Source of the DNA: Arenibacter nanhaiticus
GTDB lineage: Bacteria; Bacteroidota; Bacteroidia; Flavobacteriales; Flavobacteriaceae
DNA length: 64,000 nt
Assembly: GCF_900141935.1 (NCBI RefSeq)
Contig: NZ_FQYX01000009.1
Span: forward strand, 62,001 to 126,000
Direction: 5' to 3'
Part shown: positions 52,899 through 61,554 of the stretch, piece after piece
How positions within the stretch are numbered: the first letter of the stretch is position 1
How the letters are laid out: the number at the start of each line of letters is the position of its first letter
Notes under the pieces: generated by a model
Told to the model about the DNA's origin: nothing
The model's input: only the letters and a program-made list of their open reading frames with translations
Databases searched by the model: none
Position numbers and translations under genes: made by a program

Positions 52899-53540
52899 TT
52901 AAGAATGGCGTGCCTCCAAAACCGCTACAATATCTTTTAAGGTAAAGCCTTTTGCTTGGAGTAATATTAGATAGTGGAACAACAAATCGGCACTTTCGTC
53001 CTTAAACAGTTTGTCGTCATTATCTTTTGCCTCGATAACCACTTCCACAGCTTCTTCTCCGACCTTTTGGGCAACCTTATTGATTCCGCTTTTAAAGAGG
53101 GACGAGACATAACTTGGCTTAGCGCCTTCTTCCTGGACTACTTTACCTTCTGCTTGGTCTTTTCTATTTTGGATAATAGCCTCGAGTTTACTTAAAAACC
53201 CGTAAGAAGCGTTATTTTCCTCTTCCCAACAGGTATCGGTTCCCTTGTGGCATGTTGGACCAACGGGATTTACCTTAACTAATAAAGCATCTTGGTCACA
53301 ATCTAGTTTCATATCTACTAGATGAAGAAAATTACCGCTTTCTTCGCCTTTGGTCCATAAACGCTGCTTGGTTCTGCTAAAAAACGTAACCTTTTGCGTT
53401 TTTTGGGTTTTCTCAAAAGCGTCTTGGTTCATATACCCCAGCATCAGTACTTTTTGGGTCGTTGCATCTTGAATGATGGCTGGTACCAATCCGTCGTTAT
53501 TCTTATTAAAGTCTATTGTCATCATTGTTACATTGGTCAT
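52899..53540 (-). CDS. hisI: Bifunctional HisIE
   Basis: 213 residues. N-terminal HisI (phosphoribosyl-AMP cyclohydrolase: GYMNQDAFEKT, FFSRTKQRLWTKGEESGN, then CDQDALLVKV and VGPTCHKGTDTCW, zinc Cys residues). C-terminal HisE (pyrophosphohydrolase: KAG-like GINKVAQKVGEEAVEVVIEA). Steps 2 and 3 of histidine synthesis. Last gene of the operon. In-frame ATG codons at 53525 and 53522 are alternative starts closer to the usual N-terminus. Confidence 0.93.
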   Translation of the reverse strand: MTNVTMMTIDFNKNNDGLVPAIIQDATTQKVLMLGYMNQDAFEKTQKTQKVTFFSRTKQRLWTKGEESGNFLHLVDMKLDCDQDALLVKVNPVGPTCHKGTDTCWEEENNASYGFLSKLEAIIQNRKDQAEGKVVQEEGAKPSYVSSLFKSGINKVAQKVGEEAVEVVIEAKDNDDKLFKDESADLLFHYLILLQAKGFTLKDIVAVLEARHS

Positions 53541-59639: not shown

Positions 59640-60497
59640 TTACAACACCATCTTTTCGATCGGACACACCAGAATGCCTTCAGCACCTGCTTTTTTAAGT
59701 TCGTCTATGACCTCCCAAAATTTATCTTTATTGATAACAGTGTGAATAGAACTCCATCCTTCTTCTGCCAAAGGTAAAACGGTAGGGCTTCGCATTCCTG
59801 GAAGGAGCGCAATTACCTCTTCTAGCTTATCATTAGGTGCGTTTAACAGCACATACTTGGACTGCCTAGCTCTAAGGACGGATTGGATTCTAAACTGTAG
59901 TTTTTCGAGCAACAGCTGTCTTTCAGTATCAATCAAGGGAGATACTGCTAATACAGCTTCACTGGTCAGCATGACTTCGACCTCTTTTAAATTGTTTTTA
60001 AACAGCGTACTCCCACTAGAAACTATATCACAAATAGCATCTGCCAATCCAATATTAGGAGCAATTTCTACAGAACCATTGATAATGTGTATATCAGACT
60101 TTACCCCTTTACTTTCCAAATAATTTACGACCGTATTGGGATAGGAAGTAGCTATGCGCTTTCCTTCAAAATCTGTTACATCTTTATATTTTACGGGTTT
60201 GGGAACCGCCAAAGATACTTTACATTTGGAAAAGCCTAATTTTTCTGCTATAGAAATATCACCACCCTTTTCTATAAGAACGTTTTCTCCTATAATCGCA
60301 ATATCTACTACCCCATCCCTTAAATATTGTGGGATATCGCCATTTCTAAGATAAAACACTTCCAGAGGAAAATTCCTTGAACATGCTTTTAGCTGGTCCT
60401 TTCCATTGTCTATGGATATACCACAATCTTTTAAAATCTGTAGTGAATCCTCATTAAGACGTCCACTTTTTTGAATTGCAATCCTAATTTTTTTCAT
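59640..60497 (-). CDS. hisG: ATP phosphoribosyltransferase HisG (long form)
   Basis: 285 residues from ATG 60497. N-terminal RIAIQKSGRLNEDS and YLRNGDIPQYLRDGVVDIAIIG, then the phosphate-binding DAICDIVSSGSTLFKN. C-terminal third domain (EGWSSIHTVINKDKFW, GAEGILVCPIEKMVL) of the regulatory long form, which binds histidine for feedback inhibition. First enzyme gene, behind the leader and terminator. Confidence 0.95.
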   Translation of the reverse strand: MKKIRIAIQKSGRLNEDSLQILKDCGISIDNGKDQLKACSRNFPLEVFYLRNGDIPQYLRDGVVDIAIIGENVLIEKGGDISIAEKLGFSKCKVSLAVPKPVKYKDVTDFEGKRIATSYPNTVVNYLESKGVKSDIHIINGSVEIAPNIGLADAICDIVSSGSTLFKNNLKEVEVMLTSEAVLAVSPLIDTERQLLLEKLQFRIQSVLRARQSKYVLLNAPNDKLEEVIALLPGMRSPTVLPLAEEGWSSIHTVINKDKFWEVIDELKKAGAEGILVCPIEKMVL

Positions 60498-60536
60498 TTT
60501 CAATTTTTAGTTTTTATCTGAGCGAAACAAACAGGC

Positions 60537-60573
60537 AGAAAAAACAAAACCCGTTTGATTGCTCAAACGGGTT
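60537..60573 (-). terminator. Attenuator terminator of the his operon
   Basis: On the minus strand AACCCGTTTGA / TCAAACGGGTT with a 4-base loop, directly followed by TTGTTTTTT. It lies 31 bases after the leader-peptide stop and 40 before hisG, the right place for a transcription attenuator. Confidence 0.85.
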
Positions 60574-60603
60574 AGATTATATTTTAATTACAACAATACA
60601 TTT

Positions 60604-60660
60604 CTATCTCGCTTGATCGCCAGTATGGAAATGATGATGATGTGTATTTTTGTTTTTCAT
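60604..60660 (-). CDS. hisL: His operon leader peptide
   Basis: 18 codons from ATG 60658-60660 to TAG 60604-60606: MKNKNTHHHHFHTGDQAR. Five of six residues from 7 to 12 are His. This is the hallmark of a his leader peptide: when charged tRNA-His is scarce the ribosome stalls on the His codons and changes which RNA hairpin forms, so the operon is read through. Followed by the terminator at 60537-60573. Confidence 0.85.
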   Translation of the reverse strand: MKNKNTHHHHFHTGDQAR

Positions 60661-60667
60661 GACGCCG

Positions 60668-60698
60668 TAAAAGTAGTATATTAACATGTAATTGTCAA
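60668..60698 (-). promoter_or_regulatory. Promoter of the his operon
   Basis: On the minus strand TTG (60696-60698), 20 bases, TACTTTTA (60668-60675), close to TTG/TAnnTTTG. The leader ATG follows after only 7 bases, so the leader mRNA would be almost without a 5' leader. Confidence 0.65.
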
Positions 60699-60738
60699 AT
60701 TTTTATACTACACATTTTTGTGACAGTTTGTTAAATTA

Positions 60739-61554
60739 TTATTGATTCCCCAAAATAAGTGGCAATCCCGAGTCTCCACTCCCTATAACGATTATCTTGG
60801 AGTTTGGAGATTCTGATAATTTTATAGTAGCATCGATCCCCTTATCCTGTAAAATCTTATCAGTTAAGGAAGCACTTAAAATCTGGTTGGCATCTGCCTT
60901 CCCTTGTGCCTCTATACGTACTTTTTCGGCTTCTTTTTGTGCGGTAACAAGTCTAAACTCGTATTCCAAAGACTCTTGTTCTTGCTTAAGTTTTCGCTCA
61001 ATAGCTTCTTTAATAGTCGGAGGCAACGTAACGTCCCTTACCAATATATCGTTTAACTGAATATATTGATCCTCTACTATCTTTTTAGACTCTTCAAATA
61101 TCTCGTGTTGAATAGCATCTCTTTTGCTTGAATACAGTTGCTCAGGCGTGTAACGTCCTACAACACTTCTAGCGGCCGACCTGATCGCAGGCAATAGGAC
61201 TCGTTGCGCGTATTGCTCTCCTTTCTCCTGATGCAATTTCCCTAAAAATTCACGTTTAGGCTCAAACCAAACGGAAGCATCTAGCTTAATATCCAATCCA
61301 TTCGAAGACAGCACATTCATTTTTTCAAAAACCTCTTGTTGTCTTACTTCATAGATAAATACTTTGTTCCACGGGGCGACAATTTGAAAACCTTCTCCTA
61401 AAGGTGGCTCATCAGTAACCACTCCCCCGCCAAAAGTCTTATACAACACCCCGGCCTCTCCCGAGTTAATGGTGATGGCAGATTTTGAAATTAAGATGAT
61501 CACTAAAATAAAGCCGATTATTACGGGTAATGCAATTTTTGGTAATTTGTCCAT
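60739..61554 (-). CDS. Prohibitin-family SPFH-domain protein
   Basis: 271 residues. One N-terminal membrane anchor (about 8-28, IALPVIIGFILVIILISKSA), then an SPFH/band-7 domain (INSGEAGVLYKTFGGGVV, GLDIKLDASVWFEP, RSAARSVVGRYTPEQLYSSK) and a long charged coiled coil (about 170-225, KEAEKVRIEAQGKADANQI). Such proteins form membrane rings that guard proteases or organise membrane patches. Between the BatA-like gene and the his promoter, probably one unit with the former (27 bases apart). Confidence 0.88.
   Translation of the reverse strand: MDKLPKIALPVIIGFILVIILISKSAITINSGEAGVLYKTFGGGVVTDEPPLGEGFQIVAPWNKVFIYEVRQQEVFEKMNVLSSNGLDIKLDASVWFEPKREFLGKLHQEKGEQYAQRVLLPAIRSAARSVVGRYTPEQLYSSKRDAIQHEIFEESKKIVEDQYIQLNDILVRDVTLPPTIKEAIERKLKQEQESLEYEFRLVTAQKEAEKVRIEAQGKADANQILSASLTDKILQDKGIDATIKLSESPNSKIIVIGSGDSGLPLILGNQ

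Follow-up and report, generated by a model that had tools for sequence, protein, structure and literature searches.

The window, that is the whole stretch of 64,000 nucleotides of Arenibacter nanhaiticus DNA that was analysed here, carries on its minus strand a his operon of eight genes, all of them with NCBIfam matches, that reaches down to position 52899. The first regulated gene is hisG (60497-59640; TIGR00070 and TIGR03455), with the ATG at 60497 as its probable start, followed by hisD (59522-58239), hisC (58182-57133), hisB (57082-55949), hisH (55873-55289), hisA (55184-54420), hisF (54359-53604), and hisIE (53540-52899). Upstream of hisG and on the same strand lies an open reading frame of 18 codons (60660-60604) with the translation MKNKNTHHHHFHTGDQAR, in which codons 7-10 are four consecutive CAT codons for histidine (60642-60631) and an additional His codon occupies 60627-60625. 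Between this leader frame and hisG stands a hairpin of 11 bp that ends in a T run (60573-60539). Both elements had been noticed in a first-pass annotation, which listed an 18-codon His-rich frame and a GC-rich stem plus T run before hisG, and both are present. Folding of the segment 60668-60504 beats that of all 200 shuffled versions (z -4.3). Another minus-strand gene (60739-61554), oriented in the same direction, ends 78 nt upstream of the leader, so that longer transcripts are possible. An NCBIfam search at E 1e-10 returned no match for this gene, whose product presumably resembles prohibitin/SPFH-domain proteins.

Conservation of the His-rich leader

All 18 genomes of the genus encode HisG, as do 166 of 199 family genomes sampled at one per genus. 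The upstream regions compared number 167, from the 18 genus genomes and 149 other family genomes; the family regions are the best 150 of the 166 HisG matches, the window's own included, with the 16 lowest-scoring left out. The first-pass annotation had held that its reading would fall if relatives had no conserved His run. Of the 167 genus and family regions, 162 have a His-rich leader frame, with three or more His within six codons, ahead of hisG. Four loci (L035, L152, L153, and L158) have two His only, at the same place in the leader, and the region of L105, which is without a His run, ends at the end of its contig. When frames are limited to 45 codons and required to contain three or more His within seven codons, 145 of 150 family regions have one in sense orientation and three have one in antisense; with four or more His required, the numbers are 104 and none. 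The His-rich frame is thus not a product of chance, and the observation as a whole was borne out. In an alignment of 148 leaders, which leaves out L105 (contig end) and L135 (terminator missed by the script), the three aligned His codons read CAT or CAC in 142, 140, and 141 rows. They vary mainly at the third base, as would be expected of translated codons.

Competing RNA pairings and the position of the ribosome

The terminator stem-loop (60573-60548) reads AACCCGTTTGA-GCAA-TCAAACGGGTT on the minus strand and is followed by the T run TTGTTTTTT (60547-60539). Its 5' arm (segment 3, 60573-60563) was delimited by terminator scan, alignment, and covariation, and its 3' arm (segment 4, 60558-60548) by terminator scan and covariation. 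A scan of 60400-60900 lists the hairpin on both strands, with shuffled sequences averaging 0.1 terminator-like sites, and the stem-loop occurs at a single place in the whole genome even when up to three mismatches are allowed. Terminator scoring took in 165 of the 167 loci, L105 (contig end) and L135 (missed by the script) being left out; an intrinsic terminator stands between leader and hisG, with a best hairpin of at least 10 pairs in 164 of these 165 loci and at least six T in a 10-nt stretch at the end of the stem in all of them. Across the 148 aligned leaders 3:4 is paired in 99.5% of the cells (slid control at most 55.2%), and among 50 sequences 10 cells are changed on both sides of the stem, a number that none of 500 shuffles reaches. 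RNAalifold, run on the 148-row alignment, found the terminator as the only helix; the other helices described below were named by hand and tested afterwards. Within the family the terminator and the stretch past the leader stop are unusually conserved, and the distance from the terminator end to the start of the HisG match varies widely, from 11 to 135 nt.

The first-pass annotation had called for a search for alternative hairpins and had placed a possible antiterminator in 60574-60603. A competing antiterminator, conserved in the 148 aligned leaders, does exist, but its 5' arm lies inside the leader frame: segment 2 (UCAAGCG, 60616-60610), comprising codons 15-17, pairs with 60569-60563 within the terminator 5' arm, and the two structures are mutually exclusive. 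In sequence terms CTCAAGCG, from the last leader codons, pairs with CGTTTGAG of the terminator 5' arm; the 5' arm was identified by alignment and folding and the 3' arm by alignment and covariation. The stretch 60574-60603 holds instead the end of another hairpin (1:2, see below) and a weak spacer hairpin, paired in 85.0% of the cells, a value that 24 of 500 shuffles reach. Pairing of 2:3 is retained in 96.2% of the cells of the 148 sequences (slid control at most 49.1%). Seven cells among 50 sequences have both sides changed, which none of 500 shuffles equals, and the number of pairs with such changes is three, which seven of 500 shuffles reach. Six leaders with an early stop (L022, L097, L122, L154, L163, and L164) end before the core of segment 2 and keep all eight 2:3 pairs, so that these codons work as RNA and not as peptide.

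Segment 2 has a further partner. The 1:2 hairpin, which would act as a pause hairpin or anti-antiterminator, joins the codons after the His run (segment 1, 60633-60619) to the region of the stop codon (60612-60599, stop codon included), both sides being defined by alignment and folding. It is paired in 82.4% of the cells of the 148 leaders and predicted in only 91 of 148 folds; in the window copy 11 of 13 pairs fold, with a C-A mismatch at the most variable pair. Both sides are changed in 40 cells among 50 sequences, a count that none of 500 shuffles reaches and that is inflated by shared ancestry, and 117 and 149 of 500 shuffles reach the observed numbers of pairs with both-side changes and of further pair types. 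The HisG tree, for which five of 127 loci with a leader outside the search pattern were dropped, offers just two supported independent pairs for judging this covariation, and among the 122 nearer relatives C-A mismatches (14) outnumber C-G (9) at the variable pair. In alignment columns 46 and 68, the choice of His or Tyr at the second codon past the His run goes along with the kind of stop codon (TGA versus TAA/TAG); the two columns combine as C-G in 74 and as U-A in 35 of 148 rows, apparently by way of the 1:2 hairpin.

The position of a stalled ribosome was modelled in silico, with a footprint assumed to reach 12 nt past the first base of the A site. When the A site holds the final His codon of the first run, the ribosome is assumed to end 4 nt short of segment 2 in 116 of 148 leaders, and in two its edge intrudes into segment 2. 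When the ribosome is stalled on the second His codon and the RNA extends up to segment 3, at least six of eight antiterminator pairs form in 146 of 148 leaders, and in the window copy stalled on His seven of eight fold. Placing the ribosome on the stop codon gives the terminator in 147 of 148 folds. Complete free RNA likewise folds into the terminator in 147 of 148 cases and into the antiterminator in none, so the switch would have to depend on timing. Classical attenuators work by timing as well.

The pairing logic extends beyond the family. Of 196 genomes from the order, 71 have matches at E up to 0.001 to a covariance model (R1) of the leader, built from 50 of the 148 rows, and these include several other families. 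In the phylum, TIGR00070 detected hisG in 128 of 148 genomes, and the regions compared are 63 of these matches, namely the best 30 and 33 picked by hand across families. His-rich frames precede hisG in 40 of the 63 on the sense strand and in two on the antisense strand; among the 23 regions without such a frame, 16 stand before a hisG with a different product start (LKLGLPKG and similar). These 40 leaders and six among seven R1 matches in the order make up 46 non-family leaders, of which 27 have a terminator in the scan and 19 have none in that scan, L344 among the latter having one by eye. In the 27, a set that includes close relatives (L298/L299 and L308/L309), pairing of the leader with its own terminator averages -13.6 kcal/mol versus -9.05 kcal/mol after permutation, and none of 300 permutations matches it. 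Shuffles of the single leaders gave values at or below 0.05 for 22 of the 27, and 21 of them have no more than three better partners than their own among the 26 other terminators; L284, L286, L293, and L313 have at least 14. The sequences are unrelated across families and the pairing with the own terminator is retained on average. A compensatory change is visible by eye between L282 and L297, where GGCGCCGG pairs with CCCCGGCGC and GGCGTCGG with CCCCGACGC.

Seven leaders from another family of the phylum (L279, L280, L281, L285, L300, L304, and L305) carry HHAHHGHHH-like or similar repeats, and the terminator scan returned no intrinsic terminator for them. Six of the seven have a -7-like element 4-5 nt upstream of the start codon and would accordingly be leaderless or near-leaderless. 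By eye, a GATGTCC/GGACATC hairpin can be drawn from the His codons of L279. Leaders of this type without a terminator possibly use another read-out, such as Rho.

Promoter spacing and leaders of other operons

The promoter consensus quoted in PMC6847099 is TTTG/TAnnTTTG, and that study took as probable promoters of Flavobacterium johnsoniae the candidates whose -7 element lies 4 or 5 nt from the transcription start. The promoter that the first-pass annotation had placed 7 bases before the leader ATG was recovered: the -7-like element TACTTTTA (60675-60668) stands 7 nt before the ATG, with a -33-like TTTG (60699-60696) 20 nt upstream of it. The -7 site agrees with five of the six fixed positions of the consensus, the last G being replaced by A. 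Combined with the 4 or 5 nt rule (PMC6847099), the spacing of 7 nt predicts a transcription start at 60663-60662 and a 5' UTR of 2-3 nt. Leaders longer than 10 nt are reported for 87% of the F. johnsoniae transcripts of that study (PMC6847099), and leaderless mRNAs are put at 5.5% of those mapped in F. psychrophilum (PMC9723704).

The spacing, measured from the nearest of the best-scoring -7 sites, is 7 nt in all 18 genus loci. Among 80 relatives (Arenibacter, Maribacter, Zobellia, Cellulophaga, Muricauda, and others), some of whose loci come from genomes also in the genus and family sets, it is 7 nt in 61 and 8 nt in 13, and many of the 80 have an equally good -7 match 13-15 nt from the ATG. 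Two classes of spacing are seen across the family, with 59 of 148 leaders at 1-11 nt (peak at 7-8) and 89 at 13-33 nt (peak at 17-19). A full -7 match occurs in 65 of 165 leaders, and a control stretch located 80-122 nt upstream has one in five of 165. Among 40 other genes of the window, six have a full -7 site within 150 nt and none within 11 nt, numbers too small for a comparison. Outside the family a full -7 match lies within 8 nt in seven of 23 full-match leaders, three of them from one genus. A near-leaderless start of the his leader is plausible: the fixed promoter-to-ATG distance supports this part of the first-pass proposal, in which the position of the transcript start stays a prediction.

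Other amino-acid operons of the same genome are arranged in a similar manner. A frame rich in the matching amino acids precedes trpE, pheA, ilvD, and thrA, and the genome thus seems to make general use of attenuation. The trpE leader (L349) encodes MKNRISNTWWWTNLRQTS and has TATATTTG 5 nt before its ATG and a terminator before trpE; its predicted 5' UTR is 0-1 nt. The pheA leader (L354), MTKQYFWIGFYFNFFFQRGMGLF, pairs with its own terminator arm at -16.0 kcal/mol, the ilvD leader (L353), MQINNNIINVVIIIPEMG, has TAATATTG 4 nt before the ATG, and the thrA leader (L355) encodes MIVNNSDILKFYAPIVIGTITTTTIGTTTPLG. Trp-rich leaders stand before trpE in 28 of 30 family loci, with none of 30 on the antisense strand. 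In the 25 trp leaders with a -7 match of at least five in six, the spacing is 4-8 nt in 11 and 12-18 nt in 14. Within 22 genomes, from which those without a his or trp leader or with a trp -7 match below five in six were left out, his and trp spacing tend in the same direction, not significantly so (Fisher p 0.08, kinship ignored).

Interpretation and comparison with known systems

The his leader is very probably a ribosome-mediated transcription attenuator of the trp/his type. The first-pass reading, that stalling at the His codons prevents the terminator, is strengthened by the existence and conservation of the alternative pairing that it requires. In the mechanism that we infer, which includes translation of the leader, a response to histidine, and kinetic switching, RNA polymerase would start a few bases upstream of the leader ATG, and a ribosome would load nearly at the 5' end of the transcript, without a Shine-Dalgarno sequence. 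When charged tRNA-His is scarce, the ribosome would stall on the His run and leave segment 2 (60616-60610) free to pair with the terminator 5' arm as soon as this is made, which would permit read-through into hisG. With plentiful tRNA-His the ribosome would reach the stop codon and cover segment 2, and the terminator 3:4 would form and end transcription before hisG. In RNA free of ribosomes segment 1 would tend to hold segment 2, and the terminator would be expected to form too.

A simpler account would see in the hairpin an ordinary terminator of the upstream gene, next to a chance His-rich frame and an unregulated hisG. That the hairpin is terminator-like on both strands would fit such an account, but the His run before hisG in 162 of 167 regions, the variation of the aligned His codons mainly at the third base, and the conserved competitor of the terminator inside the leader would not, and we regard it as scarcely credible. 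The strong sequence conservation of the terminator and of the stretch after the leader stop in the family could also point to a sensor other than the ribosome, such as a riboswitch, a T-box, or an RNA-binding protein. This is very improbable given that conservation tracks the His codons and how far they lie from segment 2, that other families keep the pairing logic with unrelated sequence, and that neither the window nor 20 sampled loci have an Rfam match at gathering scores.

More weight attaches to the view that the attenuator is real but not near-leaderless, transcription starting further upstream at another promoter or reading through from the gene that ends at 60739, with the 7-nt spacing as a by-product. 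The -7 site without its last G, the co-directional gene 78 nt away, the -7-like matches of equal quality that many of the 80 relatives have at 13-15 nt from the ATG, and the 89 of 148 family leaders with a spacing of at least 13 nt all agree with it. We nevertheless consider an upstream start unlikely, because all 18 genus loci share a spacing of 7 nt and 74 of the 80 relatives have one of 7 or 8 nt, some of them with their sole full -7 match at this distance; moreover, the spacing stays fixed while the terminator-to-HisG distance varies from 11 to 135 nt, and the same two spacing classes recur in trp leaders.

Ribosome-mediated attenuation requires that the leading ribosome follows closely behind RNA polymerase, as is established for the enterobacterial case. 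The wide conservation of the switch, taken together with this need, suggests that transcription and translation are coupled here without Shine-Dalgarno sequences. As a serious though tentative possibility, the attenuator leaders of the Bacteroidota may be ancient, phylum-wide, ribosome-sensing switches that are near-leaderless (5' UTR 0-4 nt) in several lineages, with 70S ribosomes loading at the bare 5' end behind RNA polymerase, and with his, trp, and probably ilv controlled in this way in one genome. The near-leaderless form would make transcription-translation coupling testable; the named RNA segments can be mutated, and the sequences are enough for a covariance model.

No Rfam family matches the window or 20 sampled related loci at gathering scores; His_leader (RF00514) is also absent from the 13 weak matches of the leader itself. 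PyrG_leader, SSRC10, and Trp_leader score far below gathering in the leader search, and the T-box has no gathering match in the window. A literature search, judged from listings and with subscription journals mostly outside its reach, yielded no worked-out his attenuator of the Bacteroidota. Cys-rich upstream frames of mycobacteria have in later work reportedly turned out to be leaderless themselves. As presented in PMC4633059, these frames resemble the his leader in being candidate attenuating leaders in a group rich in leaderless transcripts, and differ from it in concerning cysteine and the Actinobacteria.

The text of PMC9413887 presents RNA attenuators as described for Proteobacteria, with some Firmicutes added. 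In Bacteroidota, the accounts consulted offer hints: short frames in Bacteroides thetaiotaomicron that resemble leader peptides (PMC7366714), a count of Bacteroidetes leader genes in which his is not named (PMC4833913), and, in 2021, indications that amino-acid operons of F. psychrophilum are preceded by leader-peptide attenuators (PMC9723704). The main text of PMC8305728, on his genes in this superphylum, contains no word beginning with "leader-" and a single "attenuat-" word, which refers to enterobacteria. Set beside the hints in these sources, the present leader would be a concrete and conserved his attenuator for a large phylum.

Several described elements come near to it. The hisG element of F. 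psychrophilum, listed among structured 5' elements without an Rfam match and present in other Flavobacteriaceae genera too, belongs to the same family and the same gene; compared by its main text, that report gives no leader sequence, antiterminator, or distribution for it (PMC9723704). The candidate His leader attenuators of Firmicutes from 2022 share three to five consecutive His codons and a terminator and antiterminator found by comparison; they differ in coming from another phylum and 17 genomes, and a near-leaderless start is not mentioned in the text compared (PMC9413887). The Bacteroid-trp RNA motif (RF01692; PMC2864571, 2010) likewise belongs to Bacteroidetes, as a cis-regulatory RNA candidate that takes its name from trp; it is not linked to his and does not match the window, and the terms "leader peptide", "histidine", and "hisG" are absent from the main text of that paper. 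The his attenuator of E. coli and Salmonella (RF00514; in part PMC3896937) has the same components, namely a leader peptide with His codons, a terminator before hisG, and an antiterminator exclusive with it. The leader described here differs in having no covariance-model match, no Shine-Dalgarno start, 4+1 His codons, and a predicted 5' UTR of 2-3 nt. In its inferred mode of action it resembles the enterobacterial his attenuator, a known kind of switch, and it is not a member of RF00514.
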